From Collinsella sp. BA40 (GTDB lineage Bacteria > Actinomycetota > Coriobacteriia > Coriobacteriales > Coriobacteriaceae): a DNA stretch of 64,000 bases. The notes beneath the pieces were generated by a model. The model saw only the letters and a program-made list of their open reading frames with translations, ran no database searches and was not told where the DNA came from. Of this stretch, positions 1,731 to 51,036 are shown piece by piece; position 1 is the first letter of the stretch, and each line of letters opens with the position of its first letter. The position numbers and the translations under genes were made by a program. The stretch covers positions 124,001-188,000 of the forward strand of contig NZ_VOWY01000007.1 of assembly GCF_008014645.1 (NCBI RefSeq), written 5' to 3'.

Positions 1731-1829
1731 GGTGCATCCTTTTGCGTAGTAGGTGTTCGGCATACGTTCTTGTTCCCGAAAGCGCGTCGCACCATACGGA
1801 CGAGCGCGCGCCGGACGCGGCGTGTTTTA

Positions 1830-1858
1830 TTGCAAATACCCGCGGGTTCTCGCATAAT
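1830..1858 (+). promoter_or_regulatory. Sigma-70-like promoter for the 2025-3626 gene pair
   Basis: TTGCAA (1830-1835) and CATAAT (1853-1858) are separated by exactly 17 bp, upstream of the two-gene unit starting at 2025. The implied leader is about 160 nt. Confidence 0.6.
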
Positions 1859-2024
1859 AGCGGGTAATGTTCGCGACGGAAACACACAGATGAAACGAAC
1901 TCCAATCCGTTGCACGCGCGGCGCGCCCTCGGGCTCGCCCCATCACTTCTCCTCGCGGGCGTTGCGGGTGGCCGTTGCGGCGGCTGCCGGATAGATGCAT
2001 CGTTTATCAGGCGGGAGGAACCCC

Positions 2025-3164
2025 ATGGCATCACAACAGCATGCGCATCGCTCGACGGTGATCGCGGTGTCCAGCGGTTTTGCGCTGGCGGTGCCGCTGT
2101 CCGCCTATGCAGCCACGCTGCCGTTCGAGGCGGCTCATGACGCGGTGCGCACCGCGGGCCTTCCGTTTGCGCTGGGCGCGTTTGCAGGTATGGGCGCCTA
2201 TGCCTTGACGTCGGCATATTACGAGGCGAAGGACGGCGCCGCTGTCGAGAAGAGCGAGCGGGAGGCGCAGCCCGAGCCGCAGGTCGCAGAAAAGGATCAG
2301 CTTGGAGTTACGGGGATCTTCCGTCGTCGCGAAGATGACTCCGTTCCGGTTATCTCGCGCGCGGTCGATGCGCTGAGCGAGGCCGAGGCCTGGGCCGAGA
2401 TCGATCGCCTGCTCGAAGAGGATTCTCCCGTGAGCTGCGACGCCGCTACGTCGAAGGACATCTATCAGATCGCGCTCGAGGAGCTTGCTCGCGCAGCGGG
2501 CTCTGCTCCCTCTCCGGATTCGGGCGTCGATCCGAGCGCCGGCGTGACGAACCCGGTTGCGCTGATGGAAAGCGGGTCGCCGACATCCGCGATGGACCAG
2601 GCTGCCGTGGATGCGGCCATAGAGGCGCAGCGAACGATGCGGCTCGACGCCGACGAGCTCGCCATGGCCCAGATGACGGCCCAGCTTGCCTGCGACGCCA
2701 TCGATCTTGACGAGCCTTCGGGCGTGTTTCCCGCTTCGGCTGTCGAGGACGCGGCCGCGGCGCCGTCCGATGCCCTGCCGTCGGACCAGGCGTGCGATCG
2801 CAAGGATGCGACGGAAGACGCTTCGACCCTGGATGCGGCGAGCGCGCTCGCGTCCGCGGCGGAAGAGCTTGCGGTCCGTGCGGCCAATGGCGGCCCGATC
2901 GACGGCGACGATGCGGTGCAAGAGGTCGTTATGGTGGACTACAGCGGCCATGAGGCGATGTGGGCCGCGGCCATCGCCATTCTAGAGGAGGACCTGCCCC
3001 CGCTTTCGGCTGATGCGCACCGTGCGGGTGCCGCCTCTGATCTTGGTGCGGCATCGTCCGGCGCGGGCGGGGGAGCGGCGTCGGCGCGCAAGGCCGGCCG
3101 CGAATATCTGAGCGTCATCGAGGGCGGCACGGCCTCTATGCCCGCTTTGAAGGTGGAACCGTAG
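2025..3164 (+). CDS. Hypothetical membrane-anchored acidic protein
   Basis: A 379-residue protein of no recognised family. The start at ATG 2025 follows a clear GGGAGGA ribosome site. Residues roughly 10-65 contain hydrophobic stretches (VIAVSSGFALAVPLSAYAA and LPFALGAFAGMGAYAL), suggesting a signal anchor or two membrane helices. The remainder is a long Ala/Asp/Glu-rich, probably disordered segment with few predicted globular features. Its stop abuts the next ATG, so it is co-transcribed with the VanZ-like gene. The product may be a surface or envelope protein; function is unknown. Confidence 0.75.
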   Translation: MASQQHAHRSTVIAVSSGFALAVPLSAYAATLPFEAAHDAVRTAGLPFALGAFAGMGAYALTSAYYEAKDGAAVEKSEREAQPEPQVAEKDQLGVTGIFRRREDDSVPVISRAVDALSEAEAWAEIDRLLEEDSPVSCDAATSKDIYQIALEELARAAGSAPSPDSGVDPSAGVTNPVALMESGSPTSAMDQAAVDAAIEAQRTMRLDADELAMAQMTAQLACDAIDLDEPSGVFPASAVEDAAAAPSDALPSDQACDRKDATEDASTLDAASALASAAEELAVRAANGGPIDGDDAVQEVVMVDYSGHEAMWAAAIAILEEDLPPLSADAHRAGAASDLGAASSGAGGGAASARKAGREYLSVIEGGTASMPALKVEP

Positions 3165-3626
3165 ATGCGCTCCAAGATATCGATTCGCTGGCCCTGGGTG
3201 TTCGCCTCGCTGGTTATGTGCGCGTTCATCTGGGGCAATTCGCTGGTCCCCGGCACCCAGAGCGGGGAGGCCAGCCACGCGGTTCTCGACCTCGTCCACG
3301 GCGTACTGCAGATGGTCGGTTTGCCCTACGAGTGGATGACCAACTTCGTTATTCGCAAGATCGGCCATTTTACCGAATACGCCCTGCTGGGAGTCTGCGT
3401 TTCGCAGGCCCTCGACGGCTTGGGGACGTGCGATCGACGTGCGATGCTGGCGAGCGCGGCGGTACTGGCCCTGGTGCCCTCGCTCGACGAGACCATTCAG
3501 CTGTTCGTGAGCGGGCGAGCCGGCATGGTGTCCGATGTGCTGCTCGATTGCACGGGCGCGGCGTTTGGCGTGGCCATGCGCTGCCTTGTTCGTAGGTTGG
3601 GAAAGCGTGGAAGCGCTCGCTCTTGA
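3165..3626 (+). CDS. VanZ-like integral membrane protein
   Basis: A 153-residue membrane protein of the VanZ-like family, whose prototype gives low-level teicoplanin resistance but whose biochemical role is largely unknown. The hallmark block RKIGHFTEYALLG (about 65-77) is followed by DETIQLFVSGRAGMVSDVLLDCTG, the conserved acidic/arginine second motif. Four hydrophobic segments fit the usual topology. The start codon immediately follows the stop of the upstream membrane protein. No other glycopeptide-resistance genes are nearby, so resistance should not be assumed. Confidence 0.85.
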   Translation: MRSKISIRWPWVFASLVMCAFIWGNSLVPGTQSGEASHAVLDLVHGVLQMVGLPYEWMTNFVIRKIGHFTEYALLGVCVSQALDGLGTCDRRAMLASAAVLALVPSLDETIQLFVSGRAGMVSDVLLDCTGAAFGVAMRCLVRRLGKRGSARS

Positions 3627-3679
3627 CCAGCGGAAATCCTGGTTGCCGGATGATTCCCAAACTTTTTCGAAATTCTCGC

Positions 3680-3737: not shown

Positions 3738-3815
3738 GGTGGGTGTAGCTCAGTTGGCTAGAGCGACGGGTTGTGGTCCCGTAGGTCGAGGGTTCGAGTC
3801 CCTTTACCCACCCCA
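3738..3815 (+). tRNA. tRNA-His (anticodon GTG)
   Basis: Cloverleaf with an extra 5' G (G-1, typical of tRNA-His), acceptor GTGGGTG paired with CACCCAC, loop TTGTGGT giving anticodon GTG, T-loop GGTTCGAGTCC and an encoded 3' CCA. It is the first of three tRNAs in one operon. Confidence 0.95.
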
Positions 3816-3841
3816 CGCTTCCTCTTGAAGTTGACATAGTT

Positions 3842-3918
3842 GGATCGTTAGCTCAGCTGGCTAGAGCAGGGGACTCTTAATCCCAAGGTCCAGGGTTCGA
3901 ATCCCTGACGATCCACCA
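3842..3918 (+). tRNA. tRNA-Lys (anticodon CTT), copy 1
   Basis: 77-nt cloverleaf: acceptor GGATCGT/ACGATCC, anticodon loop CTCTTAA (anticodon CTT), T-arm GGTTCGAATCC, encoded CCA. It is identical to the second copy 100 bp downstream. Confidence 0.95.
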
Positions 3919-3941
3919 TTCTTCTTCATACTTACATAGTT

Positions 3942-4018
3942 GGATCGTTAGCTCAGCTGGCTAGAGCAGGGGACTCTTAATCCCAAGGTCCAGGGTTCGA
4001 ATCCCTGACGATCCACCA
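3942..4018 (+). tRNA. tRNA-Lys (anticodon CTT), copy 2
   Basis: The sequence is identical to the copy at 3842-3918, and part of the preceding spacer (acatagt) is also repeated. This indicates a recent tandem duplication with a 100-bp period. Confidence 0.95.
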
Positions 4019-44751: not shown

Positions 44752-45855
44752 CTACCGGACCATGAGCGCTATCGCCCAGACCCAGCAGGCCATCTCGCGG
44801 GCCGTCGCGCAGTTCGCCACGCACGGCCTCTTGCCCGACCGGGACATGGCGTCTCGCCTGTCCTGCAGGCGGCGGTTGCACTTCGCGGCGTGCCTCGACA
44901 CGGCCGGCGCGACCCCGTGGCCCGGCCTCGGCTTCTTGGGGCGCCTCGTCGACATCGGGACGTGCCAGGAGGCCTCGACCAGCGCGCGCCGGACGTGGCC
45001 GTTGCCGGCGCGGGTGATCCCGCCGCGCGACTCCGTCTCGCCGCTCGAGCGCTCCGAGGGGGCCAGGCCGCACCACGAGGCGAACGACGGCGCGGTCGGG
45101 AACCTCGAGAAGTCGCCGGCCTCGGCGGCGAGCAGGAAGGCGCTCGCGACGTCGATGCCCTTGACCAGGCAGAGCGCATCGACGACCGGCGCCCACTCGG
45201 GCCGCGCGGCGGCCTCCTCCACCTTGCGCTCGAGCTCCCTCTTGGCCTCGGCGCAGCGCTCCACGGCGTCCATGTAGTGCTCGTAGGCGGCCGCGTCGTC
45301 GGCCTCGCCGAACTCGATCGACCTCGCCCACCTCCAGTACGCCTCGGTCCAGTTCGACCTGCGGCGCCCGGCAGGCGTCGTCTCGTCGAACACCAGGCCG
45401 TGCCTGAGCAGGAACTTGGACATGCGCTGCTTGGCGCGCTGCAGGTCGTCCCGCGCGTCCTCGAGCGCGCGGGAGAGGTCCCGGGCGGCCTCGGTGCGGT
45501 CGTCGGGCACCCACGCCTCGACGACGTTGCGGCAGGCGAGGAGCCTTGCCAGCCACTCGGCGTCGCGCCGGTCGTTCTTGCGGCCCCGGTCGGCCGCGGG
45601 CCGGTGCATCTTGGAGACGGCGCCCACGGCGCAGTCGACGCCGAGCGCCCTCAGGGCGCGGCAGAGGTGGAAGCCGGTCGGCCCGCTCTCGTACACCGCC
45701 TTGGGCGACTCGAACCCCAGGACCCACTCGGCGACCGACGCCGGGTCGTAGCCGAACCCGGCCCGGGTCACCTCGCCGGCCATGGGGTCGAAGGCGCATG
45801 CGGAGATGCTCCTTGCGCGGACGTCGAGACCGATGGCTGTGACATAATCGAACAT
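44752..45855 (-). CDS. IS110-family transposase
   Basis: A 367-residue DEDD/serine transposase. The N-terminal RuvC-like domain starts FDYVTAIGLDVRARSISACAFD, with the next acidic residue in KAVYESGPTGFHLCRAL and the third and fourth in KNDRRDAEWLARLL. The C-terminal Transposase_20 region contains LVKGIDVASAFLLAAEAGDFSRFPTAPSFASWCGLAPSE and the RGGITRAGNGHVRRALVEASW block that includes the catalytic serine region. The start at 45855 follows GAGAGGGG; the frame is open to 45954 but that part overlaps the element end. It appears intact. Confidence 0.93.
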   Translation of the reverse strand: MFDYVTAIGLDVRARSISACAFDPMAGEVTRAGFGYDPASVAEWVLGFESPKAVYESGPTGFHLCRALRALGVDCAVGAVSKMHRPAADRGRKNDRRDAEWLARLLACRNVVEAWVPDDRTEAARDLSRALEDARDDLQRAKQRMSKFLLRHGLVFDETTPAGRRRSNWTEAYWRWARSIEFGEADDAAAYEHYMDAVERCAEAKRELERKVEEAAARPEWAPVVDALCLVKGIDVASAFLLAAEAGDFSRFPTAPSFASWCGLAPSERSSGETESRGGITRAGNGHVRRALVEASWHVPMSTRRPKKPRPGHGVAPAVSRHAAKCNRRLQDRRDAMSRSGKRPCVANCATAREMACWVWAIALMVR

Positions 45856-45970
45856 GGCGGGCCCCTCTCCGTCGCATGTGGCGCGCGGCCACGGTTGGTG
45901 GTACGACCATTGTCGCCCGACCCACGATAGAGCTACAAGGGGAGGGGCTCCCAATGTTCAACTCATATCG

Positions 45971-48809: not shown

Positions 48810-48884
48810 AGAAATTGGAGATCGTCCTACCTTCTACTTTATATTGGTGTTGCCACAAACGTAAACGTAACATCTTAGTGCTAG

Positions 48885-48890
48885 TATAAG
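48885..48890 (+). promoter_or_regulatory. Possible -10 element of the retron ncRNA
   Basis: TATAAG at 48885-48890 lies 7 bp before the a1 repeat, preceded by an AT-rich stretch; the -35 is weak. It would start transcription close to the ncRNA 5' end. Confidence 0.4.
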
Positions 48891-48896
48891 ATACAA

Positions 48897-49070
48897 GCAA
48901 ATAAGGTCGCAGCGATATCTATTACCGTCATATTGAGGTGTCCGCCGTTAAGGATGGACTAGAGATATCATTTACCCTTTCGTGCTTGGACGATTTCCGT
49001 TCTCTCGTCCTTCACCGGGGGGTTCAGGACGAGAGAACGGAAATCGCCCAAACAGTGCGGCCTTATTTGT
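48897..49070 (+). ncRNA. Retron msr-msd RNA
   Basis: Direct reading reveals the canonical layout. The a1 repeat 48897-48911 pairs with a2 49056-49070 over 15 bp including two G-U pairs. Immediately after a1 comes AGCGA, with the branch guanosine expected at G48912. An msr hairpin is closed by GATATCT (48914-48920) and AGATATC (48963-48969). The msd stem is a perfect 21-bp pairing of 48991-49011 with 49026-49046 around a 14-nt loop (TCACCGGGGGGTTC). It is followed by the effector and reverse transcriptase genes, the order known for retron Eco1 (Ec86). The exact msDNA ends are not defined by sequence alone. Confidence 0.88.
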
Positions 49071-49127
49071 TGCATTCTGTGCGATTCAGCGCTGTTCTAT
49101 CTCGATTCATAAAGGGGCGTCTAAGCA

Positions 49128-50108
49128 ATGGAGTGTATATATCCAGAAGATGTTCGTGAATTGAAATCTTTCATTCGAGAAAGGCGAGATTTAGGGAATA
49201 GGCCAATTTATATTTTTCCTTGTGGCGGCGATGAGAAAGAACATGTATCTAGAAAACACCTGAGAGGGTATCTCAAAAGAGCCAAATCCCCCTCTCTCCA
49301 TAACGTGATTTGTCTCACTGCAGAGGATGTTGCGACCCGCAATGAGCTTGCAGATTTAAGCTTGGTTCAGCAGGAGGCGATTCTTGCGGATATATGCGAT
49401 TGGATTCTGATATTTGCAGAGAGCGTCGGGTCAATTTGTGAGCTGGGTATTTTTAGTTCTTTGCCTCATGCGCTCAGAGTTACCTCCGTTGTGATTGATG
49501 AGAGGTATAAGGACGAGAAGTCCTTTATGGCTGATGGTCCTGTGCGAGAAATTGAGAAATCTGGGAAATTACTCAATCAAGTGTTTTATGCGAACTTCGA
49601 TTGCGTTTTTTCTAATCCGAAGCTAGAAGCTTTCATCAATGATTTGAGGGATCATATAAAAAATGATGGTGGAGAGAGAAGGAAATATAACGACGATGTG
49701 TCCAATTTAAATGTAGGATCCCTTGTCCACGAGCTCATGGATTTGCTTCAGATTGTCGGGCCGATTACGTCGGCCGATTTACTTAATTTATACTGCGAAC
49801 TAAAAGGATTTACTGCGAAAAGCAAGATGCGCATCAGTTCTCCGACCCTTCAAGCTGATATGAAAAGTACGGTTAGCATTTCGTTTGAACAAGTGATATC
49901 CATCATGGATGCTGTTGGAATAATACGACAGCAAAAACGAGCTAGAGATCGAGCTAGAGATAAGCTTTATTTGACACCAGCTGTACATTTGGAGTCATAT
50001 TTCATGTTTAAGTCGACTGATTCGAGAGAGTTCGCGCGTATACGTTCTCGTATTTTGCTCCGGAAACGTAGGAAGGGCATTTGGGGCGGTAAAAATGTCT
50101 ATTGTTGA
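49128..50108 (+). CDS. Retron effector, nucleoside deoxyribosyltransferase-like with winged-helix domain
   Basis: A 326-residue protein resembling the effectors of type II-A retrons (Eco1/St85 group). The N-terminal domain is NDT-like: IYIFPCGGDEKEHVSRKHLRGYL, DWILIFAESVGSICELGIFSS (ES.GS..ELG, with the probable catalytic Glu in CELG). After a polar linker, residues about 205-300 look like a winged helix (HELMDLLQIVGPITSADLLNLY...). Such effectors are held by RT-msDNA and, when released, deplete a nucleotide pool or modify nucleotides to stop phage growth. The gene starts 57 bp after a2 and overlaps the RT gene by 14 bp. Confidence 0.85.
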   Translation: MECIYPEDVRELKSFIRERRDLGNRPIYIFPCGGDEKEHVSRKHLRGYLKRAKSPSLHNVICLTAEDVATRNELADLSLVQQEAILADICDWILIFAESVGSICELGIFSSLPHALRVTSVVIDERYKDEKSFMADGPVREIEKSGKLLNQVFYANFDCVFSNPKLEAFINDLRDHIKNDGGERRKYNDDVSNLNVGSLVHELMDLLQIVGPITSADLLNLYCELKGFTAKSKMRISSPTLQADMKSTVSISFEQVISIMDAVGIIRQQKRARDRARDKLYLTPAVHLESYFMFKSTDSREFARIRSRILLRKRRKGIWGGKNVYC

Positions 50109-51036
50109 GGAGATCGCCTCGGATCTTGGCTTCAGTAAGTCTTACATAAAAGAAATCGCCGAAGGAGCAGGTGGTCGTTATAGAAAAGTTCTTCTGAACG
50201 GTAGGCGCATCGATGTCCCTTCCAGCGATCTTAAACTTGTGCAAGGATGGATTGCCTGTCTATTGCAGGAATGCATGCCCTGTGACGCAGGCTATATTAC
50301 CGCCTATGAACCTGGTAGGTCTGTTATCAGCAATGCCCTCCTGCATTCGGAAAACGCCCATTTGATCACTTTGGATATAACTGGGTTCTTCCGTTCGTGC
50401 ACAACGGAAATGGTGAAATCAGTTTTTTCTCAACTTCGATTCGTCAGTCACGGTAGCAATAACAAGACTGCGGTATCAAAAAAAGACATCGAACTGTTAA
50501 CACAGCTTTCCTGCTACCGGGGGTCGTTGCCGATGGGCAGTCCTTGTTCGCCTGGTATCGCAAACAGAATCATGGTTCCCGTTGATCAAGAGATTATCCG
50601 TGTGCTTCCTCCTGACTGTAGCTATTCGCGCTATTCTGACGATATAGCAATCTCTTCATCTCAATGGTTGGATATACAGGGGATTGTTGGGCTCCTCGAG
50701 GTCGTATTGGCAGAATATGGCTTCAATGTAAACCATAAAAAAGTTCATTGTTACGGCAAGGGCGATGCAAGGAAGATAACTGGCATCTATATTCATCCAG
50801 ATGGAACGCTTGGGATTGGTAAATCAAGAAAGGCCTTGCTATCCAGGTCGCTCTATTTGTTGCTAACCAGGCAAACTGGATCAGCTTCTGAATTATTGGG
50901 GCATTTAAATTTCTGCAAGCAGGTTGATCCCGATCTATTTGTGCGCCTCATTGCTAAGTATTCGTCGTATGGGGTTGCAGTTGAGTATGGAGGCGTAATG
51001 CCAGCTTTAGTGGAGATGGCGAACAGGGAAGGGTGA
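50095..51036 (+). CDS. Retron reverse transcriptase
   Basis: A 313-residue RT that makes msDNA from the upstream ncRNA. Retron-specific features are visible: NALLH (NAxxH motif, near residue 80), then LDITGFFRSC (motif A). GSLPMGSPCSPGIAN lies near 143, the catalytic RYSDDIAIS near 180 (YSDD in place of the usual YADD) and KITGIYIHPDG near 220, corresponding to the retron VTG motif. Length is typical. The gene overlaps the effector and shares its AT-rich composition. Confidence 0.93.
   Translation: MSIVEEIASDLGFSKSYIKEIAEGAGGRYRKVLLNGRRIDVPSSDLKLVQGWIACLLQECMPCDAGYITAYEPGRSVISNALLHSENAHLITLDITGFFRSCTTEMVKSVFSQLRFVSHGSNNKTAVSKKDIELLTQLSCYRGSLPMGSPCSPGIANRIMVPVDQEIIRVLPPDCSYSRYSDDIAISSSQWLDIQGIVGLLEVVLAEYGFNVNHKKVHCYGKGDARKITGIYIHPDGTLGIGKSRKALLSRSLYLLLTRQTGSASELLGHLNFCKQVDPDLFVRLIAKYSSYGVAVEYGGVMPALVEMANREG

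Follow-up and report, generated by a model that had tools for sequence, protein, structure and literature searches.

A divergent and very probably complete type II-A retron in Collinsella sp. BA40, with relatives in gut Coriobacteriales

Introduction

Retrons are widespread across phyla according to a DefenseFinder survey (PMC9090908). Known relatives of the locus presented here include Retron-Eco1 (Ec86) and the type II-A retrons Asa1 and Squ1. In Ec86, as summarized in a review, a phage Dcm methyltransferase acts on the msDNA, whereupon NAD+ is hydrolysed and the infection aborted (PMC12939059, citing Wang 2022 and 2024). NAD+ hydrolysis by the Retron-Eco1 effector is reported by Carabias et al. 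2024, as cited in PMC12548924 and PMC12774641. The trigger of Asa1 and Squ1 is a phage N6-adenine methyltransferase, with GATC as the motif (PMC12548924). A literature search found no retron study on gut Coriobacteriales.

Here, we describe a locus at positions 48896–51036 of a 64,000-nucleotide stretch of the Collinsella sp. BA40 genome (contig NZ_VOWY01000007.1), referred to below as the window. The locus is very probably a complete type II-A retron of the Ec86/St85-like kind with an NDT effector.

Results

Organization of the retron locus

The ncRNA, effector gene, and reverse transcriptase (RT) gene follow each other on the forward strand in the order known from Ec86 (Table 1). The effector and RT open reading frames are both intact and overlap by 14 bp.

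Table 1. Features of the retron locus and its surroundings in the window, and related coriobacterial loci.
Feature	Position	Strand	Evidence or remark
IS110-family transposase gene	44752–45954	−	In a stretch of ~72% GC between two low-GC tracts
AAA_13-type ATPase, 653 aa	46848–48809	+	87 bp upstream of ncRNA
ncRNA	48896–49071	+	
a1 arm	48896–48911	+	16-bp stem with 49056–49071 in minimum-energy fold; inverted repeat; covarying in five loci
AGC with G48912, presumed 2'-5' branch/priming guanosine	48911–48913	+	Sequence
msr region with hairpins	48912–48969	+	Fold; closing stem 48914–48920/48963–48969
msd hairpin	48983–49054	+	Fold and inverted repeat (34-nt arms, 88% complementary)
a2 arm	49056–49071	+	Fold, inverted repeat, covariation
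Type II-A effector, 326 aa	49128–50108	+	NF038232, PADLOC NDT_II-A, PDB structure matches, invariant E105
Retron RT, 313 aa, YSDD, NALLH, ITG	50095–51036	+	PADLOC RT_II-A, RVT_1, PDB match, tree
Relative, Eggerthellaceae MAG E06__bin18 (L009/L013)			
Relative, Olsenella sp. An270 (L010/L015)			
Relative, Atopobiaceae MAG RGIG5762 (L011/L014)			
Relative, Atopobiaceae MAG UW_MP_ATO4_1 (L012/L016)			

Structure of the msr-msd RNA

The minimum-energy fold of positions 48880–49090 has an energy of −94.1 kcal/mol (z = −8.3), and none of 200 shuffled sequences was as stable. The a1/a2 stem, the msr hairpin (48914–48969), and the msd hairpin are contained in this one predicted structure. The core of the a1/a2 repeat (48898–48911 with 49056–49069) is 93% complementary, and its single exception is a G-T wobble. 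The core stem of the msd (48991–49011 with 49026–49046) is perfectly complementary over 21 bp and bears a 14-nt loop. The RNA has the features general to retron ncRNAs, namely a1/a2 inverted repeats, a G right after a1, and stem-loops in both msr and msd. The msd is predicted to be the template for an msDNA of about 70–75 nt, which would start beside a2 and whose ends we infer.

These elements had been read from the letters in the original prediction, and its coordinates are off by one or two bases at most. The a1/a2 repeats, placed at 48897–48911 and 49056–49070, were found again by folding and by repeat search, with the stem extending to 48896 and 49071. The AGC right after a1 was read in the sequence, the msr hairpin was recovered by RNA folding, and a complement check confirmed the perfect 21-bp msd stem.

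The window ncRNA contains neither GATC nor CCWGG. Palindromes of four or six bases are absent from the msd stem, and the only one in the msd is CCGG, located at the loop. An Rfam search of the window at the gathering threshold matched only tRNAs; therefore, no curated family covers the window ncRNA. Three tandem tRNA genes, two of which score identically in Rfam, are located at 3739–4015 of the window. A sequence scan for promoters gave no convincing candidate.

The effector resembles that of Retron-Eco1

The effector is composed of an N-terminal nucleoside-deoxyribosyltransferase-like/NAD-glycohydrolase domain and a C-terminal winged-helix-like region. It belongs to the retron St85 effector family by its match to NCBIfam NF038232 (3.1e-36, 125.5 bits, cut-off 100) and matches PADLOC NDT_II-A with 1.2e-32. 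An NDT-like effector of the St85 family is thus encoded beside the RT, as in type II-A retrons. The sole PDB relative detected by sequence is the Ec86 effector (4.9e-11). The AlphaFold2 model of the effector (pLDDT 85, pTM 0.86) has three entries of the Retron-Eco1/Ec86 effector, 8qbl, 7xjg, and 8qbk, as its top PDB structure matches, with E-values of 5e-10 to 3e-9 and moderate TM-scores of about 0.5. Residue E105 of the window effector aligns to E106 of Ec86, the catalytic glutamate of the Retron-Eco1 NADase that is mutated in the inactive entry 8qbl (E106A). Among the eight effectors compared, which come from Coriobacteriales, Bacillota, and Planctomycetota, the only invariant positions are this catalytic glutamate and a few others.

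The reverse transcriptase is a divergent type II-A member

PADLOC ranks its RT_II-A model first for the window RT (2e-50, 170 bits), followed by type III-A with 137 bits, and RT_II-A is likewise best for the RTs of the three intact coriobacterial relatives. The match to RVT_1 has an E-value of 7.4e-20, and the best PDB match is the Ec86 RT (3e-22). The St85 RT model NF038233 gives 199.9 bits, which is 35 bits below its cut-off of 235, and the window RT is therefore counted as a divergent member; models of DRT and group II RTs reach at most 32 bits. The retron X motif is NALLH, of the form NAXXH, and the Y motif is ITG, a variant of VTG. The first position of VTG is I or L in 26% of retron-like RTs (PMC4244168).

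In an IQ-TREE phylogeny, the references of which are retron-type RTs only and not a broad RT set, the five coriobacterial RTs form one clade (96/93), and the window RT is nearest to that of Olsenella (95/85). The deeper branches of the tree are weakly supported. Motifs, model scores, and the tree of retron-type references identify the protein as a retron RT, and the placement in type II-A comes from PADLOC, with NF038233 below its own cut-off and the deeper branching weak.

A tblastn search of plasmids and phages found only relatives of about 24–31% identity; the RT is about 27% identical to the named plasmid and phage type II-A relatives. Scans of viral contigs with the RT, the RT alignment, the AAA protein, and the effector alignment gave no relatives.

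The YSDD motif was considered as a mark of novelty and rejected. It is present in the type II-A RTs of each of the five coriobacterial loci and in retron-like RTs of other phyla, and by these sequences it reads as a clade trait that is common to further retron-like RTs and comes as no surprise. The frequency of YSDD in the genome scan is biased, because YSRYSDDI served as one of the seeds; homology alone led to the YSDD RT of Leptospira (L054).

Retrons with covarying RNAs in other Coriobacteriales

The effector family occurs above the cut-off in five of 400 genomes sampled from the class, which are that of the window and four from other families of the same order (Table 1). All four relatives have the order ncRNA, effector, RT seen in the window and in type II-A retrons, and their RTs carry YSDD and are 41–49% identical to that of the window. 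The ncRNA of each relative is located just upstream of the effector gene and has an a1/a2 stem, a G immediately following a1, and a long hairpin in the msd. The four msr-msd folds have z-scores of −5.7 to −9.5.

The MAFFT alignment of the full ncRNAs is poor, as the sequences have little in common, and covariation was therefore counted on the a1/a2 arms alone. Across the five loci, 95.7% of the cells of the a1/a2 helix are paired, and 12 of 14 pairs have changes on both sides. The A-U pair nearest the branch and one G-C pair are invariant. Covariation scores 0.94, compared with 0.39 for shuffles and 0.12–0.24 for controls with slid partners; the arms were picked from folds and aligned at the branch end, which biases the score toward the named register. 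Despite this bias, chance is an implausible source of the covariation, given the effect size and the separate loci.

Two of the relatives have defects. The UW_MP_ATO4_1 RT (L012:2812–3723, minus strand; G394) contains two in-frame stops, next to a well-formed ncRNA, and is either broken or affected by an assembly error. The effector frame of E06__bin18 (L009:3860–4975, minus strand) lacks a start codon close to its N terminus, and the AAA gene that adjoins this retron (L009:840–2803, plus strand) has a frameshift; both point to decay or to indels in the assembly.

Within the family of the window, a type II-A RT is present in one of 67 genomes. The only other RT match among them is a 584-residue fusion (L002; G054:C8:162660–166274) that hits PADLOC RT-Protease_XI with an E-value of 2.6e-112, and this RT-protease fusion best matches a type XI retron. 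Positions 1753–3659 of a human-faecal scaffold deposited as phage (MT838926.1, L008) hold a type II-A retron beside an IS3-type-transposase-like gene. The scaffold may not be a phage.

An AAA_13 ATPase gene in the same low-GC tract

The AAA_13-type ATPase encoded upstream of the retron has a Walker A motif, a CPIC zinc hook, and, toward its C terminus, conserved R-x-W-[IV]-E-K and LN[HQ]xxH motifs. This layout is suggestive of RloC/PrrC-like nucleases. A search of solved structures with the protein gave no match. The retron and the AAA_13 gene are located in a common tract of about 43% GC, between the IS110 transposase gene and a region of 60–66% GC, which suggests horizontal acquisition.

Discussion

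The assignment of the locus to type II-A rests on family models, structure, phylogeny, and covariation across four homologous loci, and the same evidence supports the original prediction of a complete type II-A retron in a coriobacterium. Its parts were expected in the Eco1/Ec86 order, which the sequence and open reading frames bear out; the NDT-type effector agrees with NF038232, PADLOC NDT_II-A, and the Eco1 effector structures, and the anticipated NAxxH and ITG motifs were found as NALLH and ITG. A grouping of the RT with non-retron RTs is absent by the model scores and the tree of retron references, and the fold of 48897–49070 is kept and covaries in the four relatives. The accompanying claim that the locus extends retron diversity, with YSDD in place of YADD, was overstated, because YSDD occurs in other RTs, the PADLOC and NCBIfam models already recognize the system, and retrons are widespread across phyla (PMC9090908). 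We regard the locus as a divergent addition to the type II-A retrons, judging by an RT that is distant from the named ones, and do not claim a new kind.

The divergence of the RT and the missed NF038233 cut-off would also fit a non-retron RT, of the DRT, Abi, or group II intron kind, that has an NDT-like gene and a stable hairpin as chance neighbours. We consider such a coincidence extremely improbable, as retron models lead those for DRT and group II RTs by over 100 bits, the NAXXH and ITG motifs are present, and the ncRNA-effector-RT arrangement is kept in four other loci. The locus might instead be a remnant, the parts of which are recognizable while msDNA production and defence have been lost. 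The sporadic presence in the family agrees with this reading, as do the Atopobiaceae RT with two stops and the Eggerthellaceae effector without a start, which indicate either decay in the clade or MAG errors. However, the open reading frames and catalytic motifs of the window retron are intact, its msd stem has no mismatch in 21 bp, and compensatory changes maintain the a1/a2 helix, which makes a remnant very unlikely.

Slightly more probable than a remnant, and still improbable, is a four-component system, in which the trigger of type II-A retrons in coriobacteria is specific to the locus and, in some lineages, the adjacent zinc-hook AAA_13 ATPase is a partner, acting as a second effector or a sensor. 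The AAA_13 subfamily is rare (three of 350 Coriobacteriia genomes), yet a type II-A retron lies beside two of its three copies, at a distance of 87 bp in the window and 149 bp in the Eggerthellaceae MAG; the gene shares the low-GC tract of the window retron, and its product has weak PADLOC matches to the candidate defence ATPases PDC-S06 and LmuB. However, the window copy is upstream on the same strand and the MAG copy downstream in convergent orientation, the MAG copy has a frameshift, no retron accompanies the third copy, and no AAA_13 gene is near three of the five coriobacterial type II-A retrons within the stretches examined. Shared residence in a defence island accounts for the adjacency equally well and suffices to explain it, with a functional link being possible. 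The type II-A retron assigned here may also use an effector substrate other than NAD+, such as the nucleosides or nucleotides processed by nucleoside deoxyribosyltransferases and CMP N-glycosidases. The fold family includes a CMP N-glycosidase (4jen_B, TMt 0.66 but E-value 0.29), and few residues besides the catalytic glutamate are invariant in the eight effectors. The closest relative in both structure and sequence is nevertheless the Retron-Eco1 effector, for which NAD+ hydrolysis is the activity reported in the citing papers (PMC12548924, PMC12774641), and a different substrate is unlikely, though less so than a four-component system.

By homology, the window retron most likely functions as an abortive-infection system. 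The RT would synthesize the msDNA from the ncRNA, primed at the 2'-OH of G48912, by copying the msd hairpin. The RT, the msDNA/msrRNA, and the NDT-like effector should assemble into a complex, probably filamentous like that of Retron-Eco1, that restrains the effector. A phage activity, most likely a DNA methyltransferase, would alter the msDNA and thereby release or activate the effector, which would hydrolyse NAD+ via E105 so that the infected cell stops before phage is produced. We infer msDNA synthesis, filament formation, NAD+ hydrolysis, the type of trigger, and phage defence from Ec86 and Asa1/Squ1, and favour the NAD+/methylation mechanism in its details with modest confidence. The known methyltransferase triggers would find neither GATC nor CCWGG to act on in the msd, and a different trigger is therefore expected; should it be methylation, the methyltransferase would have another specificity.

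The general picture of what retrons are is unchanged by the window locus. Judging by the loci described here, three families of gut Coriobacteriales harbour complete retrons of the Ec86 type, the msr-msd RNAs of which covary. Five divergent RT/ncRNA pairs are now available for comparing msDNA sequence with trigger, and the coriobacterial RTs are possible enzymes for DNA production in actinobacteria.

Comparison with known type II-A retrons

The window locus and Retron-Eco1 are alike in gene order, a1/a2 stem, AGC branch site, and long msd hairpin. The window RT, for which the Ec86 RT is the best match in the PDB, differs from it by YSDD in place of YADD and ITG in place of VTG. The effectors have a similar fold and the same catalytic glutamate, at 23% identity in the structural alignment. 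The window msd lacks the CCWGG and GATC motifs with which it was compared to Retron-Eco1, and thus also the GATC methylation trigger motif of Asa1 and Squ1. The RTs of the coriobacterial loci fall into a clade separate from the type II-A RTs of Gammaproteobacteria and phages. The type II-A retrons of Gammaproteobacteria and phages have effectors of the NF038232 family, as does the window retron. The retrons of Vibrio (L047), E. coli (L050), and Klebsiella phage 4LV2017 (L049), and Retron-Asa1, -Squ1, and -Hch1, have adjacent or overlapping effector and RT genes in the order found in the window (PMC12548924). Among the four coriobacterial relatives, only that of the Eggerthellaceae MAG E06__bin18 has an AAA_13 neighbour. 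The msd and a1/a2 sequences of the relatives are unrelated to those of the window except for the branch-proximal bases, whereas the ncRNA architecture, the effector, and the RT are alike.
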